This document shows, in pieces, positions 2,685 through 37,278 of a stretch of DNA of 37,366 nt. The notes under the pieces are model-generated. The model saw only the letters and a program-made list of their open reading frames with translations, searched no databases and was not told the DNA's origin. The position numbers and the translations under genes were made by a program. Numbering within the stretch: position 1 is the first letter of the stretch; each line of letters starts with the position of its first letter. Source of the DNA: a virus; the IMG/VR virus record IMGVR_UViG_3300044636_000846, positions 1-37,366 of that record; one strand, written 5' to 3'.

Positions 2685-4043
2685 ATGCCCCGAGGAACCC
2701 GCCGAACGTCCTATGTGCGGGACAACCGCGGACGTTTCGCGAGCACGCCAGGCGGTGGCGCCCCCAAGCGACCGCCGGCCAAGCGGGCCAGCCGCGGCAC
2801 CAATCGCCTGACGCGGGACAACTCGGGGCGCATCACCAGCGTGGGCGGCAACGGCGCCACAGCCCGCGGGGGACGGCTGCGCACCGGGGCGGGGAACCTC
2901 AGGGCCAGGCAGACCGATCGCCTCAAGGGGGCGCCTCAGGGGGTGCTGAGCAGGGGAGGGAAAGCGCGGGGGAAGGTGGCCATGAAGCCGGTGGGGTGGA
3001 TGCAGTCACCAGAGGCCAGGAAGGACCGCGCCGATCCCATGGTGGCGGGGCACCGCAAGGACCAGGCAAAGCGGCTACGAGCCCTCCCCAAGGCGGCGCA
3101 GAGGGCGATACGGCTTGAGCGAATGAACTACGGGGGCACCGGGGTTAATCGCATGAGCGCTATGCGAGACATTGCAGAAGGTCGGGTTATTTTGATGGGC
3201 AATGTAGGCAAGCGAAAGAACAAGCGATCAGCCGGCGAGGTTCAAGCGATTGCTCAACAAATGAACCGATCAGCCACCCGCCTGAAGGCCGGCATGGCGA
3301 CGGGCAGCAGGGGGCGGATGAAGTACAACCCCAGGGCCGTGGAGGCAAGCGGAAAGGGCACCGCTGCCAGAAAGATCCGCGGGGCTCGCGTTGGTGGGGT
3401 GGCGCGGAAGGGCAAGGCAGCGCCAGCAAAGCCCGCCGGCAAACAGAGAAAGCCGCTAACAAAAGAAAGAATTAGCGCGGCTAAGGGCAAGATCACTGCC
3501 AAATTAACTGCCGTTTTGGATGAAATCAGGAAAGTTGAAAACGCCAAGAATCGCGATAACACCCCAGCCTCAGGCGGCTTTAGCCCCCGCTACCTTAAAC
3601 TGATCGCAAGAGGGCAAAAGGCTGATAAGCAACTGGAATCACTAAAAAGAGCCTCAAAAAGGCTTAAGCAAATTGAACTAAGCTACGATCCCGCAAAGTA
3701 TGGCTATGGTCGCGGCACAGATCAGCGCAAGTCTCTTGCGACTGAGATCCGCAACGCTCGCAAGCAGCTCACGACACTGCAACGCGAAGAAGCTACAGCA
3801 AAAAAAGTGTATGAAGCTGATCCTGTTGTTAGATTCGGCCTATGGGGAGAGATTGGCCAAAACAGAAGGCAATCGCGTAAGGCAAAAGAAAGAAACTCTA
3901 ATGCAGCGATGAACAGGGTTGATAGGTATATTGGCGCAGGGATTGCAGTAAGGCAGCAGCAAAACGCAATCAAGCAGCTAAGAGATAAAGCAAAGCGGCA
4001 AACACAGGAGACAAACAAGCGCCAGAAGCCCCGCAAGCCCTAA
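2685..4043 (+). CDS. Basic modular protein A (RDN-GRF family, helical C-terminus)
   Basis: Function unknown. This 452-aa, Arg/Lys/Ala/Gly-rich protein is one of four paralogues in the window. Its first 85 residues hold the shared module: SYVRDNRGRFAST, then NRLTRDNSGRI, then GATARGGRLRT and a RARQT segment. From about residue 250 it becomes a long charged alpha-helical or coiled-coil domain rich in Lys, Gln and Glu, ending in KPRKP. DNA composition changes with the domains: row 2821-2880 holds 47 G+C of 60, row 3481-3540 only 24. It sits between portal and Mu F head protein, so a role inside or on the head is plausible (inference). The ATG lies 21 bases after a start-associated motif. It lacks the GTIAKPKGLKPGAI-type linker of the other three. 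Confidence 0.75.
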   Translation: MPRGTRRTSYVRDNRGRFASTPGGGAPKRPPAKRASRGTNRLTRDNSGRITSVGGNGATARGGRLRTGAGNLRARQTDRLKGAPQGVLSRGGKARGKVAMKPVGWMQSPEARKDRADPMVAGHRKDQAKRLRALPKAAQRAIRLERMNYGGTGVNRMSAMRDIAEGRVILMGNVGKRKNKRSAGEVQAIAQQMNRSATRLKAGMATGSRGRMKYNPRAVEASGKGTAARKIRGARVGGVARKGKAAPAKPAGKQRKPLTKERISAAKGKITAKLTAVLDEIRKVENAKNRDNTPASGGFSPRYLKLIARGQKADKQLESLKRASKRLKQIELSYDPAKYGYGRGTDQRKSLATEIRNARKQLTTLQREEATAKKVYEADPVVRFGLWGEIGQNRRQSRKAKERNSNAAMNRVDRYIGAGIAVRQQQNAIKQLRDKAKRQTQETNKRQKPRKP

Positions 4044-6383: not shown

Positions 6384-7856
6384 GTGGCGGGCGGTAGCAG
6401 GGGCAGGCGGACCTACGCCAGGGACAACCGGGGGCGCTTCGCCAGCACCGGCACCGCTCGAACCCGCCCCGCCCCCAAGAAGGCGGCCACCAGTGGTCCG
6501 AACCGCCTCACCCGCGACAACTCCGGCCGGATCGTTGGGGTCGGCAAGAACGGGGCGACCGCACGAGGAGGGAGGCTCCGCACTGGGGCAGGGAACCAGC
6601 GGGCAACGCAGACGGCAAGGCTGAAGCGGGCCCCGATGGCGGGAGTCGTCAGCAGGAGCGGCAAGGCGCGGGCAGTGGCCACCCCACGGGTTCCCTCACG
6701 CATCGCCAACCGCTCAGCGGCGGACCAGGCGCAGCGGGACAAGCTGGCCAAGCAGTGGAAGACCGTTGAGAAGCCCGCTCGCAGGGCTGACGCCACTGCT
6801 AGGGCAAACGTTGGCGTGGCTGCGACCGTTCCCAGTTATCCCCGGCTGACCAGGGCCAGCAAGATCCGCGGGGATGCCCGCTTTGTTCGGGAGAACGTCT
6901 ACGACCAAGTGGAGCGGCTGATGCGCAGCCCCAGCCGCGGCAAGAACAAGCTCACCCCCCAGCAGCGGGCGCAGATCGTTGCCGACGCCGTGGGTAGCGC
7001 TCGCAGCCTGAGGGCTCGGGCGGCAATGACCACGCCGCGGCGCTCAACCCTCAAGGCCCGCGCCGCTCGCCCTGGCGGCACCATCGCCAAACCGAAGGGC
7101 CTCAAGCCGGGGGCGATCAAGCCCAAGACCACCCCCAAGCCCAAGGCCCCCCGCAGCCCCGCCACAAGCCGCCTCAGGCCTGGGGAGTTGATGAACGCGG
7201 TGGCGCGGCCGGTGAACACGATGGCGAAGCCGAGGAAAGGGCGGAATCCGTATCAGGCTGGCATTGCAAACATGGAGTACCAAGTATCAGCCACGAATGA
7301 TGACAAAAAGGCTCGACTCGCCAACGCGCAAGCGACTAAGGCAATGTTTGAAGGCCAAGGACTATCTGTGAAATACAACAGCGGTCGCGGCAGCAGCACG
7401 GTCGCAAGTTACAACCCTGCCACAAAGCAAATGACCATTAACAGGTCGCACACTAGCTGGGTTAATCCGGCTGCGGCTGCAATCAAAGAGCGCAGGAGAG
7501 GGGCAAAATCAAGCTCTGCGCCTATGCACACCTTTTTCCATGAAATGGGGCACGCAAGGGACAAGAATCTGTTGTCTCGATCTACGCCGTTTGGTCAGTT
7601 CTGGGTGTTGGCCACGCAGAAAGGGCCAAGCCAAGAAGCCAGGGCGGCAAGGGGCAATCAGATGGCTCGGCTCGCCCGCCGCGTCAGCCGCTACGCCACC
7701 ACCAACCCCTCCGAGTTCATTGCCGAAACCTACGCCGGCCTCAAGACCGGCCGCCGCTACGACTTCCAGGTGATGCGTGCCTACCGCGAAGCCATGGGCC
7801 TCTCGCCGAACCCTGCCCCCCGCCGCCGCAGCCGCCTCAGAAGACCCAAGCCGTGA
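6384..7856 (+). CDS. Basic modular protein B with zincin-like metallopeptidase domain
   Basis: A 490-aa paralogue of A, C and D. The N-terminal module has YARDNRGRFAST, NRLTRDNSGRI and GATARGGRLRT. The shared linker (RPGGTIAKPKGLKPGAI) is at 229-245. The C-terminal domain (about 290-470) carries HEMGH at 386-390, an HExxH zinc-peptidase motif, and a downstream NPSEFIAE at 441-448 whose Glu would be the third metal ligand. This matches the general pattern of phage-encoded zincins. It ends in RRPKP, as does protein C. DNA at about 7255-7560, which encodes the peptidase domain, is visibly AT-richer than the flanking modules. A possible role is cleavage of head proteins, or of host proteins after injection; both are inference. 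GTG start chosen from motif spacing and paralogue alignment. Confidence 0.75.
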   Translation: MAGGSRGRRTYARDNRGRFASTGTARTRPAPKKAATSGPNRLTRDNSGRIVGVGKNGATARGGRLRTGAGNQRATQTARLKRAPMAGVVSRSGKARAVATPRVPSRIANRSAADQAQRDKLAKQWKTVEKPARRADATARANVGVAATVPSYPRLTRASKIRGDARFVRENVYDQVERLMRSPSRGKNKLTPQQRAQIVADAVGSARSLRARAAMTTPRRSTLKARAARPGGTIAKPKGLKPGAIKPKTTPKPKAPRSPATSRLRPGELMNAVARPVNTMAKPRKGRNPYQAGIANMEYQVSATNDDKKARLANAQATKAMFEGQGLSVKYNSGRGSSTVASYNPATKQMTINRSHTSWVNPAAAAIKERRRGAKSSSAPMHTFFHEMGHARDKNLLSRSTPFGQFWVLATQKGPSQEARAARGNQMARLARRVSRYATTNPSEFIAETYAGLKTGRRYDFQVMRAYREAMGLSPNPAPRRRSRLRRPKP

Positions 7857-9049: not shown

Positions 9050-10915
9050 ATGGCCCGCGGCGGCAGCAGAGGCAGGCGCTCCAACTACGTGCGCGACAAC
9101 AGCGGGCGCTTCGCCTCGACTCCCGGCGGCGGCCCTCCGAAGCGCAGCACGCCCGCCTCTCGCCGCGCAGCCAGGCCCACGGTCACCGGCGGCACCCTCG
9201 GGGCCCGCGGGAGTCTTCGCCGCAGCCGCGCCAAGCTGGCTGGCAAGAACCCGGCCGATCGCAGCCTGCAGGGCACGCTGAGCCTGCGGGCCCAGAAGGG
9301 GGCCGTCACCAGGGGCGCCAACCGCCTCGGCAAGGCGCGGGTGGCCTCCACGGTGCGGATGGCGGCGCGGGCGGGGGTGATTCGAGGTGGACGGAAGGTT
9401 GCGGCAGGGCCGGTGGCGGCGCCCAAGGACTACAAGCGGGGGAGGTCGGCGGCGCTGGGCTACAAGCCGAAGGCCGATGGGACGCGGCCCGCAACCAGTG
9501 GCGCTCGGGTGCTTAGCGCAAGGCTCAACGCCTCTCAGCGGAAAAAGGCGGCCGAGGCAAGGCAGCGTTACGGGGTCCGCAGCACGGCGCAACGTGCCCG
9601 CACAAGGGCCGGCAGCTACGACCCAGCCAAGCAGGGCGGTGGCCGCGTCACGTTCAGGAGCAGGCTTGCGGCCAAAAAAGCCTATTTAATGCGAGCTGTG
9701 GCTACAAAAAACATTGCAAATAGGAAAGCATCAGACTTTACCAGTGGACTTGAATATCAAGGATCATTGAAAGCCAAGTCTGCAACGGTTTCTCAAGGCA
9801 ACCTATTGACCGGCGACACTGAGCGGATCAAAAGGGTAAGGGTTCGATCGGCTTCCCCTAAGTCGGCAATCATGGGAGTCCTGAAAAGGGAAGCGGCTAA
9901 AAGCGGCAGGCCGATGGCGCCAAGGAAGCCTGTAACCCCCAGGGCGCCAAGATATGCCTACAAAAAGATCAACAGGGCAAACGCCAACCTTGATAGAGCA
10001 AGCAAGGCAATAAATAAACTTGAGAAACGTCTTGAGAAAAGCAATACGCCCAAGAGTCAAAAGGCTTTAGCGAAAGCCCGCAAAAGCGCTGCAGTTGCCT
10101 TTAAGGCAAGAAGGCTGCTCAACAGGGAGCCAAGCCGATTTTACGGAAGGGGTTCTGGTCGCCGAGTCAAATCCGGCGCCCCTCGCCCCTCCGGCACGAT
10201 CGCCAAGCCCCGTGGCCTGAAGCCCGGCGCCATCGCCGCCAGGAAAGCCAAGGCAGCCGCCTCCGGCGCACGGGCCGCCAGGGCAACCACCAACTACAAC
10301 CGGGCCCAGAAGGCGGCCCTAGAGGCGCAGCAGCGCCTCAACCGGCGGCGCTCGCCTAAGAATCAAGCCGCCGCCGACAGGGCCCAGAAGACCCTCAGGA
10401 CCGCCGCCCGCGCCTATCGGATCCTCGTGGGTCTCGGGGGCGAGAAGATGGCCACCCCCCGCAAGCCCAGCCCCAAGGGCGCAGGGCCCCGGATGAAGGC
10501 CGCACGGCCGGCGGGGACGGTGGCGAAGCCGAAGGGGGTGAAGGTGGAGGCGCTGGCCAAGGAAGCTGGCAAGCCTGGCAAGCGTCTAGGCCGCGTTGCC
10601 GGACCACTGCCTGTGGATGGCGTAAGAAGGCGTGGTGAAACCACAAGGAATCGATCAGATGTATCTGGCGCAGTTGCGGACATAAAGGCGCTAGGTCTAC
10701 CCATTTACAAGCCCAGAACGGCTAGATCTCCAGGCCAGGAAGGCATCCGAGTCCGCAAGGGGCCAAGGGCTGGGACCGTGGGGATCATTGCTCACACGCT
10801 GGAAGCCTTTGACAGGGCTCTTGCCCTGGTTAAAAAGCAAGGCGGAGAAATCCTGTATCAGAACAAACAAGGGCAAGCCTTCACCTTCAGGAATCCCCGC
10901 AGGCCGAAGCCCTAA
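9050..10915 (+). CDS. Basic modular protein C (RDN-GRF family)
   Basis: Function unknown; 621 aa and extremely basic. It opens with NYVRDNSGRFAST like its paralogues, but the second half of the N-terminal module (RDNSGRI/GATARGGR) is diverged or lost. The linker motif occurs twice, at about 379-395 (RPSGTIAKPRGLKPGAI) and 486-502 (RPAGTVAKPKGVKVEAL), bracketing a helical Lys/Ala-rich block. The last 80 residues form a separate small alpha/beta-looking domain (GTVGIIAHTLEAFDRALALV, then GQAFTF) and the end is RRPKP. DNA at about 9667-10150 and 10620-10890 is AT-richer than the modules around it. It is followed after three bases by the next gene across a 21-base junction shared with gene A. Confidence 0.72.
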   Translation: MARGGSRGRRSNYVRDNSGRFASTPGGGPPKRSTPASRRAARPTVTGGTLGARGSLRRSRAKLAGKNPADRSLQGTLSLRAQKGAVTRGANRLGKARVASTVRMAARAGVIRGGRKVAAGPVAAPKDYKRGRSAALGYKPKADGTRPATSGARVLSARLNASQRKKAAEARQRYGVRSTAQRARTRAGSYDPAKQGGGRVTFRSRLAAKKAYLMRAVATKNIANRKASDFTSGLEYQGSLKAKSATVSQGNLLTGDTERIKRVRVRSASPKSAIMGVLKREAAKSGRPMAPRKPVTPRAPRYAYKKINRANANLDRASKAINKLEKRLEKSNTPKSQKALAKARKSAAVAFKARRLLNREPSRFYGRGSGRRVKSGAPRPSGTIAKPRGLKPGAIAARKAKAAASGARAARATTNYNRAQKAALEAQQRLNRRRSPKNQAAADRAQKTLRTAARAYRILVGLGGEKMATPRKPSPKGAGPRMKAARPAGTVAKPKGVKVEALAKEAGKPGKRLGRVAGPLPVDGVRRRGETTRNRSDVSGAVADIKALGLPIYKPRTARSPGQEGIRVRKGPRAGTVGIIAHTLEAFDRALALVKKQGGEILYQNKQGQAFTFRNPRRPKP

Positions 10916-14244: not shown

Positions 14245-14490
14245 TCAGGACAGGGGCCGTTGGCCGTCCCCTGATTCCTTGCGCCCCTGCCAGATCAGCC
14301 GGGCATCGTCGGGGCTCAGCCGCGCCTCGCACTCGAAGACCACGATCGGCGGCGGGGTGAGCGTGCGCGGGCCTGGCGAGGTGCGCCGGGCGCAGTCGTC
14401 GCAGCCCTCGCGCCAGTACCACTCGCCGTCTTCCTGCTCACCCACGCCGGGGCAGCGCTCTATGTCCATGGGCAGGGCAAGCGTGCTCAC
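14245..14490 (-). CDS. Small Cys-rich protein, possible zinc finger (81 aa)
   Basis: Last gene of the minus-strand cassette. The GTG start overlaps the stop of the preceding gene (GTGA). An alternative ATG at 14469 would remove seven residues. It contains CPGVGEQEDGEWYWREGCDDCARR-type spacing: one Cys, then 17 residues later a CxxC pair, giving a possible metal site. Such small Cys proteins are common in phage accessory regions. The terminator at 14184-14215 follows. No function assigned. Confidence 0.65.
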   Translation of the reverse strand: MSTLALPMDIERCPGVGEQEDGEWYWREGCDDCARRTSPGPRTLTPPPIVVFECEARLSPDDARLIWQGRKESGDGQRPLS

Positions 14491-14822
14491 GACTCCAGCT
14501 CCATCAGCATCAACTCCAGACGCGCCAGCGCGTTCCAGGCCAGGTGCGCGGCGTGCAGCATCTGGCTTTCGCCGTCGCATTCCACCCCTTGGCTTTCGGC
14601 CAGCCAGTGACGGAGCATCGCTTCTGAATACCGCTCCACCCCATTGGGCACGGAGCGCCAGCCGTTGGGGGTGTACTTGATCGCGCCATAGGTGCCGACG
14701 TGCGACACGGCCATCAGCGCCCGACTAAATCCGCCCATCACCAAGGCGGGACGTGGTTTCAAGGCATCAAGCTTGGCGCCGGGTTCGTGCTGGTCCCGGC
14801 CGGTTGGATCGTGGTCGCTCAT
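14487..14822 (-). CDS. DUF5664 protein, dATP/dGTP diphosphohydrolase-like
   Basis: Helical protein of 111 aa from the phage DUF5664 group (MazG-like fold; annotated as dATP/dGTP diphosphohydrolase N-terminal domain). Matching segments are GAKLDALKPRP at 15-25, a central VGTYGAIKY and NGVERYSEAMLRHWLAE, and a C-terminal LHAAHLAWNALARLELML. The family may hydrolyse or sense deoxynucleotides, but activity is not proven from sequence. Overlaps both neighbours (ATGA upstream, GTGA downstream), so it is translated within the cassette. No nucleotide-modification genes such as PurZ or DatZ are visible here. Confidence 0.75.
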   Translation of the reverse strand: MSDHDPTGRDQHEPGAKLDALKPRPALVMGGFSRALMAVSHVGTYGAIKYTPNGWRSVPNGVERYSEAMLRHWLAESQGVECDGESQMLHAAHLAWNALARLELMLMELES

Positions 14823-14998
14823 ACCCTCCCCTCCCCCGTGGCCCGGCAGCCCCGGTGCTGATCGCCGAACCGCCGCCCGCGAGCCTCCAGGCCCCGCAGC
14901 GGCACCGGCATGGGGAGGATCTCCGTGGCTCCGCAGTGCTCACACCGGAACACCGGCGGCTGGGCGATCAGATCCACAACGACGTGATCAAGCGGCAT
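14819..14998 (-). CDS. Zinc-ribbon-like small protein (59 aa)
   Basis: ATG at 14998, stop at 14819 overlapping the next start as ATGA. The product begins MPLDHVVVDL and contains FRCEHCGA (CxxC at 19-22) and a late HRGC, giving three Cys and several His for a possible metal site. The 11-base overlap with the upstream gene and ATGA overlap with the downstream one strongly support it. Function unknown. Confidence 0.65.
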   Translation of the reverse strand: MPLDHVVVDLIAQPPVFRCEHCGATEILPMPVPLRGLEARGRRFGDQHRGCRATGEGRV

Positions 14999-15305
14999 CG
15001 GGATCCCCCACGATCATCCGGCGGAGCGTGGCCAAGGCAATGGCGTTGCTGCCGCCTTCCTTGACGCCTTCGCTCACCAGCGAAATCAGCAGCAGGGTTC
15101 GCTGTCGCTCCAGCTCCCTGCCCTGCCTGATCGCCTCCTCTCGATCGGCCTCGCTGCGCCGTGCTGCATCGCCATAGGCCGTTTCCATGGCCTCGGCGCA
15201 GCTCTGCCTGATCGCTGCGACTTCGGCCGCTTCGGCAGTCATGGCCTCCATCTCCTGCTGCAGGGCGTCAAGCTGCTGTCGCACGAGATCCAGAACCGCG
15301 CTCAT
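14988..15305 (-). CDS. Coiled-coil protein, 105 aa
   Basis: Directly after the endolysin gene with an ATGA overlap. Residues 1-70 form a long charged coiled coil (LVRQQLDALQQEMEAM, then EADREEAIRQGRELERQ), followed by a short hydrophobic run TLLLISLVSEG. The position next to an endolysin raises the idea of a spanin-like or lysis-accessory protein, but there is no N-terminal signal anchor or lipobox, so this is weak. No family recognised. Confidence 0.65.
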   Translation of the reverse strand: MSAVLDLVRQQLDALQQEMEAMTAEAAEVAAIRQSCAEAMETAYGDAARRSEADREEAIRQGRELERQRTLLLISLVSEGVKEGGSNAIALATLRRMIVGDPDAA

Positions 15306-16369
15306 GCGGCCTCCTGCAGCACGCTGATCCAGACCGTTCCCAGGTCAAGCAGGGGCAGGATCCGATCGCGCAGATCCTGGTTGTGGAGGCGGATGCAGCC
15401 CAGCGTTGGGTGGAGCGCCTGCCGTGGGCTCCAGGCCCCCGGCCAGCCGCAGGCCGATCCGCCGCCATGAACCATGATCCCGTCCCGGTAGGGCTTGCTG
15501 GTGGGCCCCTCCTGCCCCTCCAAGCCCTCCAGATCAAACGAATACCAGCCGTAGGCGCGGCGGTCGGGGGTGAAGTTCGCGGCCGGATCCTGCTCATAGT
15601 CCCGGTAGACCTTGCCGATCCGGTAGAGGCCCGGTGGGGTGTCGGTGCCGGTGCGGTTCCACTCGGCCTCCTTGCCCTGCCCGCGGCAGAGACAGGGGAT
15701 CCGCCACAGCCGGCGCCCGTCATGGCTCCAGGCCGTGAGGGTTTCGTTCACGTCGTTGGCGATCAGGTGGTGATCACCGGGCTTGAGGGTGGGGCGGAGC
15801 TTGGGGCCCACCATCCCCGGCGGCCAGGTCGGTGGGCCATCGGGAGCGGGGCCGCCGGGCGGGCGTGGTGGCATGGCGGTCGTGACAGGGGCAGGAGCAC
15901 CCGAGAGGAACAGGGCCACCTCCGCAGCCCGGCGCCGCGTCAGCCCCTCCATGACCCCGCCGCCGCCCTTGTTCCAGCGGGGCAGCTCAGCCCGCACCAC
16001 CACGTCGGGATCCTCCCCGGCCAGCAGCCGCCGCCGCAGGGTGGAGCCTTCCAGTGCGCCGGTGCCCACGTTGAAGGCGAACGAGATCAGGGCCGCCTGG
16101 CGCTTTGCAGTCCACCCCCCGGCCATCGGCAGCAGCCGGAACACCTCCGCCGCGAAGCGGCTCAGGTCAACCGTCAGCAGGGCCTCGGCGAGCGCCTGGG
16201 AGATCGTGGCGCCGGGGACCACTTCGGGGCCGGTGTGCCCGTAGCCGATCGTCCACGGGTCACCGCCGGTGCCGGGGTCGGGGTAGGCGGTGAGGCGGCA
16301 CCCCTCGAACTGCGCAACGATCCGCCGGGCCGGGGCCAGCCACTGGGGATCAGGTGGGTTGGTGCTCAT
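15302..16369 (-). CDS. Endolysin: GH24 lysozyme fused to an L,D-transpeptidase-like (YkuD) domain
   Basis: 355 aa. Residues 10-157 are a T4/P22-type lysozyme that cleaves the glycan strands of peptidoglycan: catalytic E22 in QFEGCRLTAYPD, D31, and T40 in WTIGYGHT. A Pro/Gly-rich linker (158-195) leads to a YkuD-like domain with HGGG at 301-304 and TLGCIRLHN at 322-330, where C325 would be the nucleophile. YkuD enzymes make or exchange 3-3 peptide crosslinks, so the fusion joins a cell-wall cutter with a crosslink enzyme; alternatively the domain may cleave or bind peptide stems. ATG at 16369 overlaps the preceding stop by one base (TGATG). A longer 524-codon frame upstream has shadow composition. 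No signal peptide, so a holin is expected. Confidence 0.85.
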   Translation of the reverse strand: MSTNPPDPQWLAPARRIVAQFEGCRLTAYPDPGTGGDPWTIGYGHTGPEVVPGATISQALAEALLTVDLSRFAAEVFRLLPMAGGWTAKRQAALISFAFNVGTGALEGSTLRRRLLAGEDPDVVVRAELPRWNKGGGGVMEGLTRRRAAEVALFLSGAPAPVTTAMPPRPPGGPAPDGPPTWPPGMVGPKLRPTLKPGDHHLIANDVNETLTAWSHDGRRLWRIPCLCRGQGKEAEWNRTGTDTPPGLYRIGKVYRDYEQDPAANFTPDRRAYGWYSFDLEGLEGQEGPTSKPYRDGIMVHGGGSACGWPGAWSPRQALHPTLGCIRLHNQDLRDRILPLLDLGTVWISVLQEAA

Positions 16370-16533
16370 CAGAGAGGCCATTCGGAGACGACACGCCAGC
16401 CCTCGGCCTGCAACCGGGCCACCTCGGCGGCCACTTCGGCGGGGGCAACATCCACCACCAACGGCCTGCCGTCCTGACCGGGCGGGGGAGCAGTGGGCTC
16501 CTCGCAGATCAGGCGGATCAGGCCGCAGGTCAT
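16369..16533 (-). CDS. Small protein of 54 aa
   Basis: Frame from ATG 16533 to a TGA whose last base is the A of the endolysin ATG. Product starts MTCGLIRLIC and ends with a helix (PAEVAAEVARLQAEG) and WRVVSEWPL. The ATGA overlap with the upstream gene and one-base overlap downstream make a real gene likely. Function unknown. Confidence 0.6.
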   Translation of the reverse strand: MTCGLIRLICEEPTAPPPGQDGRPLVVDVAPAEVAAEVARLQAEGWRVVSEWPL

Positions 16534-16748
16534 CGCCGCAACCCTTGGCGGATCGCCCAGGCCGTGGCCGCCTTCTGGGCGTACCAGGACTGCAGCAGGA
16601 GCTTCGCGAAGTTGCGGAGCGTCTGCACGTCGCTGATCTCGTCCAGCAGGCGGCTATGGCGCTCCACCTCGAAGGCTTGCGCGGCGCTGAGCTCCATCCC
16701 TGCGGGGTCCGCAGGGAGGAAGCCGGCAACAGGATCGGGGGCTGGCAT
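16530..16748 (-). CDS. Helical small protein, 72 aa, first gene of the minus cassette
   Basis: The ATG at 16748 is preferred over a longer frame that runs into basic gene D. The product is two or three helices, with LSAAQAFEVERHSRLLDEI near the start and TLRNFAKLLLQSWYAQKAAT later. The LSxxQxF beginning and length loosely recall NblA phycobilisome-degradation proteins, but the similarity is too weak to assign. As the promoter-proximal gene it may set expression of the cassette. It overlaps the next gene by four bases. Confidence 0.6.
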   Translation of the reverse strand: MPAPDPVAGFLPADPAGMELSAAQAFEVERHSRLLDEISDVQTLRNFAKLLLQSWYAQKAATAWAIRQGLRR

Positions 16749-16767: not shown

Positions 16768-16818
16768 CAATCCAGACGGGCACCAGAGCGGCGGCGCCGA
16801 TCTGACCGTGGGCCGTGA

Positions 16819-16835
16819 CGGGAAAACTGCCGCAG
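16819..16835 (+). promoter_or_regulatory. Start-associated motif, copy 10 (before basic protein D)
   Basis: CGGGAAAACTGCCGCAG: the palindromic half is CTGC-C-GCAG. The core ends 28 bases before the ATG at 16857. It lies in the divergent gap, where plus-strand expression must restart after the minus cassette. Confidence 0.85.
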
Positions 16836-16856
16836 AGGATCCACCGCCGAACCGCC

Positions 16857-18776
16857 ATGCCCCGAGGTCGCCGCACCAGTTACACCCGCGACAATCGCGG
16901 CCGGTTCGCCAGTTCGCCCAACGGCGGGGCCCCGAAGCGGAGCACCCCAGCAACCCGGCGGGCAGCCACCAGGGCAGGGAACCGGCTGAACCGGGACAAC
17001 AGCGGGCGAATCACGGGGATCGGCCGCGATGGGGCCACGGTGCGGGGCGGGCGGATCAGAACGGCCAAGGGGAACCGCCGGGCAACGCAGATCGCTTCCA
17101 TGCGGCCGGCCGGATTCCGCTCGGGCACGATCGCCAAAGGTGGCCGGGGCGTGCGCGGGAGCGTGGCGCGGAGCCTGGCGGCGGTGCGGGCGGCTGGGGG
17201 GCGGAAAGCGGTAGGCCTCTCCCGTGCTCGCCCTGGACAGCAACAGCGAGCCATGCAGCGAGCGCAGGCAAACGAGAAGCGGCTCCAAGGCCCGGCAATG
17301 AAAGGGACCGGGCTCAGGACAAGGGCCGGGGTTGGCTATGCGGTCGCCAAGGGAGCACAGGGCTACTACAGCGGCTCCATGCCAAGACGAAAGGCTACAT
17401 TCTCGCCGCTTACTGGGTCTATGGATAAAAAGGCGCTGGCGGCGCGTCGTAAGCAGGTTGTTGATAACAACAAGCCGCAGAAAGGCAAGGCGGCGGCTGG
17501 CCTCTCCCGTGCTCGCCCCGGACAGGAACAGCGGGCCATGCAGCGTGTTGGCGGCGCCGGAACCGTCCTGCAGAGGCGGGACAACGCAGAGGCGCAGCGG
17601 GTTGCGGCAAGCGGTGGCCGCCGCACCTCAAGAAAAGAGGCAATCAACAGGCGCATGTACAACTCAATCACCACAGCAATTCGCGCTCGGTATGCCATTG
17701 ATAATCCCGGCAAACAAAGGCGCTACAGCACAGTCAAGAATCCCGGCCCCGCTGGGGTAAGCGCGTTGACCACGAAGGCGCCGAGACTGACGGCCAAGGC
17801 GTCACAGCCCAGCCCTCAGACCCGCGCCAAGCGGCCCGCCAGCACGGTGCGCAAGCCCTCTGGGCTTAAGCCTGGGGCGTTGGCGGCGAGGCAACAACCG
17901 CAGAAGCCATCCAAAAAGCCCGTGAACAAGGCGCAGCGGGCCTACCTCGACGCCAGAAGCAACGCACGCGACCGCAACAGGGATCTCCGAGGGGCCGACG
18001 CAGGCTCACGGCGCATGGCCAACTCGGCGGCAGCCGTGCTCAGGAACATGGAGCGCAGGCGGTCCACTGCGGTGCCCAAGGCCCCTGCTGATTCGCCTCG
18101 CGCCAAGCAGCAACAGAGGCAGGCCGCAAGGGTCCAACGGGCAAACAGCAACAGCCGGGCGGCATGGGCTCGGGAAGCTGACGGCCCCAACAGCAAGGCC
18201 AGCCGTAGCGCAACCGTCGCCAGGCGGGCCCAGCAGATTTACGCCGGCAAGGTTGACCCCAAGGCCAAGACGAAATCGAGGCTGACCAAAACCCGCGACC
18301 CTGAGGTGCTTCGCAAGCGGATCGCCAAGATCAAGGACAACACGGCGAGGGCTGCGGCGAAGGGAGTGGCCAAAGCCGCCAAGGCCTCCGCCAAGCCCGC
18401 CAAGCCAGCACGGGCGCGGCGCTCAAAGCCTGATCTGAGTCAAGGCTCATTTGAGCGCCGTGCTCGCGCCACTGAGAAGCGTGCAAAAGCCGCTGAGCGT
18501 GTTGTGTCAACTGTTGATCGCTTTAACCCCGCCAATCGCAGGTTGGTAAATCGTGCCAATTCGCTCCGATCTGCGGCGGACAGTTATGCGTACTATGCAC
18601 GGAGAGGCAAGAACGATCCTGACTTTTCAGCCGCTGATCTCTTTAAGGGAAGAAGCAGGGGCTCTACCGCTCCAAGGCTGACGCGCAGCGAAAAAGCGGC
18701 TGCCACTCGCCGTGCAAAAGCTGATAAGCGCTTCCGCGAGAACGTCCGCAGGATGGAGCAAGATCGCCGCCGCTAA
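16857..18776 (+). CDS. Basic modular protein D (RDN-GRF family)
   Basis: 639 aa, highly basic, unknown function. The N-terminal module matches A closely: SYTRDNRGRFASS, NRLNRDNSGRI, GATVRGGRIRT. The start at 16857 gives MPRGRRTSY, as in A; the upstream in-frame GTG at 16815 would translate the motif itself. A segment GLSRARPGQxQRAMQR occurs twice (47-base DNA repeats at 17214-17260 and 17499-17545). The linker motif (RPASTVRKPSGLKPGAL) is at about 326-342. The C-terminal half is helical and Lys/Arg/Ala-rich with AT-richer DNA from about 18430. It ends RRMEQDRRR rather than RRPKP. The stop overlaps the tail-terminator start (TAATG), so the two are coupled. Confidence 0.75.
   Translation: MPRGRRTSYTRDNRGRFASSPNGGAPKRSTPATRRAATRAGNRLNRDNSGRITGIGRDGATVRGGRIRTAKGNRRATQIASMRPAGFRSGTIAKGGRGVRGSVARSLAAVRAAGGRKAVGLSRARPGQQQRAMQRAQANEKRLQGPAMKGTGLRTRAGVGYAVAKGAQGYYSGSMPRRKATFSPLTGSMDKKALAARRKQVVDNNKPQKGKAAAGLSRARPGQEQRAMQRVGGAGTVLQRRDNAEAQRVAASGGRRTSRKEAINRRMYNSITTAIRARYAIDNPGKQRRYSTVKNPGPAGVSALTTKAPRLTAKASQPSPQTRAKRPASTVRKPSGLKPGALAARQQPQKPSKKPVNKAQRAYLDARSNARDRNRDLRGADAGSRRMANSAAAVLRNMERRRSTAVPKAPADSPRAKQQQRQAARVQRANSNSRAAWAREADGPNSKASRSATVARRAQQIYAGKVDPKAKTKSRLTKTRDPEVLRKRIAKIKDNTARAAAKGVAKAAKASAKPAKPARARRSKPDLSQGSFERRARATEKRAKAAERVVSTVDRFNPANRRLVNRANSLRSAADSYAYYARRGKNDPDFSAADLFKGRSRGSTAPRLTRSEKAAATRRAKADKRFRENVRRMEQDRRR
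17214..17260 (+). repeat. 47-base direct repeat in basic gene D, copy 1
   Basis: Matches 17499-17545 at 44 of 47 positions and encodes the same GLSRARPGQ-type peptide. Confidence 0.85.
17499..17545 (+). repeat. 47-base direct repeat in basic gene D, copy 2
   Basis: Second copy of 17214-17260 with three substitutions. The copies are 285 bases apart and in frame. Confidence 0.85.
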
Positions 18777-36811: not shown

Positions 36812-37030
36812 TTGCTATGTCACGCCAAGATTGCAATGGGCATTGCTGAATCCATCGCCCTGGGGGCGCTTGTGCTGACGGCAGGGGCAACTGCCGCCTC
36901 TGGGGTCAAGGCTCTTTGGTCTATCTCCCGAGGGTTGGGCACCTTTGAAGGCAAGATTTTGGAAATCCTGGCCCGCCATGAGGGCACGCTTGATGACCAC
37001 GAGGAGCGTCTCCGGGCGGGTCGGCTCTGA
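36812..37030 (+). CDS. Small membrane protein, 72 aa, TTG start
   Basis: One membrane segment (about 10-30: AESIALGALVLTAGAT) followed by a charged coiled coil (EGKILEILARHEGTLDDHEERL). Start chosen as TTG 36812 by motif spacing; ATG 36836 would give 64 aa. The stop overlaps the next start (TGATG). With the following gene it could be a holin or anti-holin pair, but it lacks a clear signature and lies 20 kb from the endolysin. Confidence 0.6.
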   Translation: MLCHAKIAMGIAESIALGALVLTAGATAASGVKALWSISRGLGTFEGKILEILARHEGTLDDHEERLRAGRL

Positions 37031-37278
37031 TGAACTGCCGGGAGCTGATCAGCGGCACGGTGGCCCTGTGCTTGGGGTTGGCAGCGGCTGGCGGCTTCGG
37101 TGGAGCGATCTACTGCCAGAGCAAGGGGGGCGACTGCCTGGAGGCCTGGAAAGCGGCCATCGCCGGGGCCTTGGCGGCGGCCACCACCGGCGGAACCCTG
37201 CTGGCCCAACTGGACGGCCGGAGGCGCGATCGTGAGGGGCTGGAGGGGCCACCGCGGGGCGACGGGGGGAGAGGCTGA
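37030..37278 (+). CDS. Small membrane protein, holin-like, 82 aa
   Basis: Two hydrophobic stretches at about 8-28 (SGTVALCLGLAAAGGFGG) and 39-60 (AWKAAIAGALAAATTGGTLL) separated by a short loop with Cys, then an Arg/Glu-rich tail (GRRRDREGLEG). This is the general plan of a class II holin, but many small phage membrane proteins look alike. It overlaps the previous gene by one base. The remaining 88 bases to the window edge (37279-37366) hold a weak hairpin at about 37281-37297 and no gene that I can support. Confidence 0.55.
   Translation: MNCRELISGTVALCLGLAAAGGFGGAIYCQSKGGDCLEAWKAAIAGALAAATTGGTLLAQLDGRRRDREGLEGPPRGDGGRG

Follow-up and report, generated by a model that had tools for sequence, protein, structure and literature searches.

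The lysin gene and its surroundings

The window (the whole stretch of 37,366 nucleotides that was analysed, IMG/VR virus record IMGVR_UViG_3300044636_000846) carries on its minus strand a gene for a two-domain lysin, and the rest of it is a tailed-phage structural module with portal, head genes, a tail protein and a tape measure. The lysin gene and its immediate neighbours are:

15302..16369, minus strand: GH24-YkuD endolysin, 355 aa, ATG at 16369 and TGA ending at 15302
16369..16533, minus strand: small upstream gene, 54 aa, kept 5' of the lysin in related phages
16530..16748, minus strand: second small upstream gene (MELSAAQAFEVERHSRLLDEI; MELSAAQAFE...), 55-72 aa (start uncertain), two genes 5' of the lysin and conserved in the related phages examined
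14988..15305, minus strand: downstream gene, 105 aa

The lysin is part of a tightly coupled operon that is conserved in related phages. Its ATG (16369) overlaps the stop codon of the 54-aa upstream gene in a TGATG, and this coupling, together with the homologues, backs the choice of the start codon; its own stop overlaps the ATG of the 105-aa gene downstream. In several related phages the two small genes likewise precede the lysin in this order. The product of 16530..16748 has a weak match to phrog_27081, and the 105-aa protein matched no family in Pfam or PHROGs. The plus-strand reading of 15302-16369 is also free of stops; given the two strong domain matches in the minus frame, it was regarded as a shadow ORF arising from the high GC content of the DNA. 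No holin was seen beside the lysin by hydropathy, and no signal peptide was seen in the lysin itself.

Some other genes of the window deserve mention. Its right end (36836-37278, plus strand) has a pair of small genes that overlap each other and encode proteins of 64-72 and 82 aa; these contain hydrophobic stretches, match no family and are weak candidates for a holin pair. Downstream of the lysin, at 14487-14822 on the minus strand, is a gene for a protein with a dATP/dGTP diphosphohydrolase N-terminal domain (PF18909, 1.9e-23), the best PHROG label of which, “endolysin; inhibits RNA polymerase”, looks like a wrong label. Four Arg/Ala-rich proteins of 452-653 aa (2685-4043, 6384-7856, 9050-10915 and 16815-18776, all on the plus strand) have a near-identical N-terminal module (...[SR]Y[VAT]RDN[RS]GRFAS..., in most of them then NRL[TN]RDNSGRI); where they were scanned no family match was found, one marginal match excepted, and they look like a paralogue family dispersed across the structural module.

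Domains and active sites of the lysin

The lysin gene encodes, in one reading frame, a GH24 muramidase domain and a YkuD domain in which the Cys/His site is intact, with the following features:

15920..16312, minus strand: GH24 lysozyme domain (PF00959), residues 20-150
16304..16306, minus strand: E22, predicted GH24 general acid, invariant in 24 homologues
16277..16279, minus strand: D31, second catalytic position of GH24, varies among homologues
16250..16252, minus strand: T40, third catalytic position of GH24, conserved to at least 90%
15815..15901, minus strand: low-complexity Pro/Gly/Ala linker, residues 157-185 (pLDDT below 50 at 160-174)
15368..15763, minus strand: YkuD domain (L,D-transpeptidase fold, PF03734), Pfam envelope residues 203-334
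15467..15469, minus strand: H301, predicted catalytic His in HGGG (301-304), invariant in 53 distinct and 37 diverse domains
15395..15406, minus strand: active-site motif T322-L323-G324-C325, of which T, G and C are invariant
15395..15397, minus strand: C325, predicted Cys nucleophile, invariant
15389..15391, minus strand: R327 (Cys+2), invariant

The GH24 domain was matched by Pfam at 3.8e-36 (124.6 bits; curated cut-off 22.3), with GH24 relatives in the PDB at 4e-21 and a fold match at E 1.8e-11, and by PHROGs the N-terminal half is an endolysin. The YkuD domain was matched at 1.4e-8 (35.8 bits; curated cut-off 23.4), and the conserved region extends from about residue 186 to the end of the protein. 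Neither of the two Pfam matches is due to chance. An earlier note, made from the DNA letters, had described an endolysin with exactly these coordinates, leaving its strand unstated, and had read it as a GH24 lysozyme joined to a YkuD-like domain with an active-site cysteine; the Pfam matches and the predicted fold bear this reading out, and E22, D31, T40, HGGG and TLGC with C325 all lie where it had placed them. It would have given up the reading if no YkuD fold were predicted or if C325 varied among close homologues; the fold is predicted with high confidence and C325 is invariant, as detailed below.

AlphaFold2 modelled the YkuD domain (35 sequences) with a pLDDT of 88.8 and a pTM of 0.85. 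A sequence search of the solved structures with the domain or its profile gave chance matches only, so that a comparison of folds was needed. Foldseek returned YkuD-family structures from the PDB (Pgp2, B. subtilis YkuD, Bd1075, L,D-transpeptidases, DpaA and Tlde1a), ranked by E-value with Pgp2 first (7e-7), followed by B. subtilis YkuD (1y7m, 4e-6) and Bd1075. The TM-scores of Pgp2, Tlde1a, DpaA and Bd1075 (0.50-0.57) were at or just above those of the transpeptidases (about 0.39-0.50), Pgp2 being the top match with 0.57, a moderate value that no solved YkuD structure exceeds. The modelled fold thus leans toward the hydrolases by a small margin, which cannot decide between hydrolysis and transfer, a matter of loop features that lie beyond the reach of such moderate scores.

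Among the 53 distinct domains H301, G302-304, T322, G324, C325, R327 and N330 never vary, and the invariance of the active site extends to the wider alignment of 37 diverse domains, isolates and host genomes included. The position of the His in the canonical [S/T]HGC is occupied by L323, so that the motif in the window is TLGC. At this position 81 of the 99 domains have L, 7 H, 4 R, 2 Q, 2 F, 1 W and 1 Y (one was unreadable); the canonical THGC (7/99) is kept in Synechococcus phages S-CRM01, S-CBS4 and B23, in one further locus (L132) and in three host-genome copies. At 22 residues, the spacing from H301 to C325 exceeds the H(S/G/D)X14-19C given for this family (PMC4599014). When the lysin gene was compared codon by codon with close relatives, the purifying constraint proved stronger on YkuD than on GH24 (in one relative, L010, the changed codons were 36 synonymous and 10 non-synonymous in YkuD, and 29 and 28 in GH24), and it is therefore very unlikely that the YkuD domain is a degenerate remnant or a decaying passenger.

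Relatives, partner exchange and ancestry

From a scan of 2.9 million viral contigs we obtained 254 candidate relatives and retained 80 loci. Among 50,697 phage records, the Synechococcus phages S-CRM01, S-CBS4 and B23 were the only ones with full-domain matches of the YkuD subfamily, and in the scan of bacterial and archaeal genomes the subfamily was found only in cyanobacteria (45 loci). It thus recurs across uncultivated phage contigs, Synechococcus phages and cyanobacterial genomes. The earlier note had proposed to look for the same fusion in other phage proteins; GH24-YkuD is present in phage relatives and also in cyanobacterial genomes, and the relatives show the fusion to be a recurrent cyanophage module, not a one-off. 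The virus of the window is most likely a tailed phage of freshwater picocyanobacteria of the Synechococcus/Cyanobium type, because S-LBS1, S-CRM01 and S-CBS4 infect Synechococcus and a near relative (L086) is on a contig of a cyanobacterial MAG.

The nearest isolate is S-CRM01, in which g113 (endolysin) and g112 (hypothetical protein) together encode GH24 and, after it, a YkuD domain of the same subfamily (P0005 3.3e-9; about 60% identity to the domain of the window). Unlike in the window, the protein is split into two overlapping frames inside GH24 and the canonical THGC is retained. In S-CRM01 (L082, 5800-7109) g113 ends within GH24 and g112 contains the rest of GH24 and YkuD in the other frame, near an A-rich stretch; the pair may represent a split gene, a frameshift that is programmed, or a slip in sequencing. 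S-CBS4 gp063 and B23 gp319 have the same YkuD subfamily in a lysin-like protein, with a glucosaminidase as partner in the former and a C-terminal GH19-like domain (below the Pfam cut-off) in the latter, and both keep THGC, unlike the window. The lysozyme of the freshwater Synechococcus phage S-LBS1 resembles the protein of the window in having a second, C-terminal wall-acting domain after GH24, which is however Peptidase_M15_3 where the window has YkuD.

The partners of the YkuD subfamily are diverse: GH24, Phage_lysozyme2 (above the Pfam cut-off in L055, below it in L064 and L067), glucosaminidase (S-CBS4 and L132), the GH19-like domain (B23, on the C-terminal side) or none, YkuD being the whole protein in several phages. 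Among the 19 records with stand-alone YkuD, which are fragmentary contigs and were searched for GH24 and Phage_lysozyme2, the former was found elsewhere in two and the latter in one, and neither in the rest. On the tree of YkuD domains (99 rows, unrooted, many weak forks) the partner label requires at least 16 changes, and GH24 at least five on well-supported branches alone, so that the domain must have changed partners repeatedly. Two large proteins of marine cyanophages in BFVD, A0A6G8R6K7 (Synechococcus phage S-N03) and A0A0K0KVM9 (Prochlorococcus phage P-TIM68), also have a region with a YkuD-like fold, and one of the two is labelled GH19.

Two YkuD forms were found in host genomes. The first is a chromosomal GH24-YkuD of 467-504 aa that lies among ordinary host genes (e.g., a sulphate permease gene) in Cyanobium, Synechococcus, Aphanothece and Acaryochloris; 10 of the 150 genomes from the order contain it at full length. 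The copies of Cyanobium (L088, 5062-6465) and Acaryochloris (L125, 4960-6474) begin with ~100 residues that lack a Pfam match. No study of the chromosomal picocyanobacterial form was found in the literature searched. The second form is a stand-alone YkuD with a short helical N-terminal module, present in several copies per genome in Synechococcus Cruz-7E5 and J7-Johnson (L116, L118, L121 and L123); in at least one case (L116) the gene adjoins phage-like genes, as judged by eye. Close relatives among these proteins differ at the motif (THGC or TLGC), and the position therefore switches readily.

The presence of full-length GH24-YkuD beside host genes in four cyanobacterial genera speaks for a capture of the fusion by the phages from a chromosomal wall-remodelling enzyme, or else for the host form being a domesticated lysin. 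An origin of this kind is plausible, though we would put it a little short of an even chance: the host clade stands apart from the clade of the window, and the tree, unrooted and with its many weak forks, does not settle the direction. It concerns ancestry, not mechanism, and is compatible with a bicatalytic endolysin or with any of the mechanistic alternatives discussed below.

Function of the YkuD domain

We judge it somewhat probable that the protein is a bicatalytic endolysin, the YkuD domain of which mainly cleaves wall peptides. It combines two wall-acting domains in one phage protein and its relatives have recurrently exchanged the partner, with catalysis being predicted. The endolysin would be released to the periplasm at lysis, and GH24 would cut the glycan strands. 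C325 of YkuD, activated by H301, would attack the L,D bond mDAP(3)-D-Ala(4), and the acyl-enzyme would be passed mainly to water; with a 4-3 cross-linked tetrapeptide as donor the cross-link would be opened, and a free tetrapeptide would have its D-Ala trimmed off. The sugar cut and the peptide cut would then combine as in other two-domain lysins.

In YkuD enzymes, an attack on the mDAP-D-Ala bond yields an acyl-enzyme, from which the acyl group passes to water, a D-amino acid or another stem. The earlier note had seen a paradox in the joining of a wall-degrading domain to a cross-link-forming enzyme; the paradox is weak and dissolves, because the bond is broken first and several of these enzymes hydrolyse it. 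YkuD proteins include carboxypeptidases, namely Csd6, Pgp2 and Bd1075, and the amidase DpaA (PMC4599014, PMC10653827), so that cross-linking is not a necessary function of such a domain in a lysin. Of the functions that the same note had listed, exchange or cleavage stands, with cleavage favoured; pure wall binding is unlikely, and sealing of the envelope after entry found no support.

Cleavage is favoured by the two-domain architecture and by the M15 domain that replaces YkuD in S-LBS1, and it is supported by the closest solved fold by E-value, that of the LD-carboxypeptidase Pgp2, as well as by the usual absence of the [S/T]HGC His together with the classification of YkuD as a peptidase lysin domain in PhaLP. 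A bicatalytic protein is further supported by the predicted fold and the invariant active site of a YkuD domain that is under constraint and is paired with several unrelated wall glycosidases. Against it stands that neither a signal peptide nor an adjacent holin was seen, and against cleavage that R327 is invariant and that some relatives retain the canonical THGC. The Cys+2 Arg is present in transpeptidases and absent from DpaA and the LD-carboxypeptidases (PMC8263019). Pgp2, Csd6 and Bd1075 share the fold, the catalytic Cys and the His-Gly with the YkuD domain of the window, but they are cellular, have other accessory domains and lack this arginine. The L,D-transpeptidases (B. subtilis YkuD, LdtMt2) share the fold, HG...[S/T]xGCxR...N and the Cys+2 Arg, but most members of the subfamily have another residue in place of the [S/T]HGC His, and no sequence match of the subfamily to any solved L,D-transpeptidase was detectable. 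A firm call of hydrolase or transferase from the motif alone was rejected, because L323 (His lost) and R327 (Arg kept) point in opposite directions.

The invariant transpeptidase-type arginine is also what speaks for a true acyl-transferase, which would exchange D-Ala(4) with free D-amino acids or form 3-3 links and so block repair or cross-linking of the wall while GH24 lyses it, in the manner of Tlde1a. This effector has the YkuD fold, acts both as a carboxypeptidase and in exchange, and was one of the structures matched (TM 0.52-0.54); its H129A variant, altered at the [S/T]HGC His, has greatly reduced cross-linking and partly reduced carboxypeptidase activity but intact D-amino-acid exchange (PMC9638812). 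We nevertheless hold such a transferase to be unlikely: the clade of the window lacks the very His whose loss hurts cross-linking by Tlde1a, S-LBS1 has a domain of endopeptidase type where the window has YkuD, and slow editing would presumably be of little use to a lysin in fast lysis.

In many lysins a binding domain stands at the C-terminal side, after a linker. The YkuD fold has this position and is swapped among several glycosidases, as would suit a non-catalytic module docking on stem peptides; a role in pure wall binding is quite improbable, since H301, T322, G324, C325, R327 and N330 are invariant in the 53 domains, with no natural loss of the Cys, and since YkuD stands alone as the whole protein in several phages. 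An enzyme of the virion that opens or reseals the wall at entry is very improbable: YkuD-like folds do occur within large phage proteins in BFVD and relatives of the partner Phage_lysozyme2 are named tail lysozymes, but the lysin carries no virion or tail domain, its gene lies in its own operon on the strand opposite to the tail genes, and the annotation of the named relatives is endolysin or lysozyme.

The YkuD subfamily, restricted to cyanobacteria and cyanophages, may have turned from a former of cross-links into an L,D-endopeptidase (or D-amino-acid exchanger) for lysis, with the Arg kept and the His usually lost, and may have passed back and forth between phages and the chromosomes of cyanobacteria as an exchangeable partner of unrelated glycosidases; we offer this scenario tentatively, as one that is possible rather than probable.

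YkuD as a lysin domain is already known: in the passages concerned, PhaLP lists it among peptidase lysin domains (10 occurrences; PMC8310338) and it also stands among the enzymatic domains of lysins in a survey of the Yellowstone virome (PMC5017753); these passages mention neither the cyanophage subfamily nor a GH24 fusion. For GH24-YkuD or the cyanophage YkuD the literature searched yielded domain catalogues only, the subfamily, the fusion and the motif loss being undescribed there, which given the limited coverage is weak evidence. What would be new here is a recurrent, cyanobacteria-specific YkuD module with a GH24 fusion. If its YkuD part is lytic, it would show the conversion of an L,D-transpeptidase fold to wall cleavage inside one family, with natural variants (with or without the His, with or without a glycosidase) at hand for comparison; it would also provide a defined lytic enzyme for cyanobacteria and would explain the uneven annotation of the lysins of freshwater Synechococcus phages.
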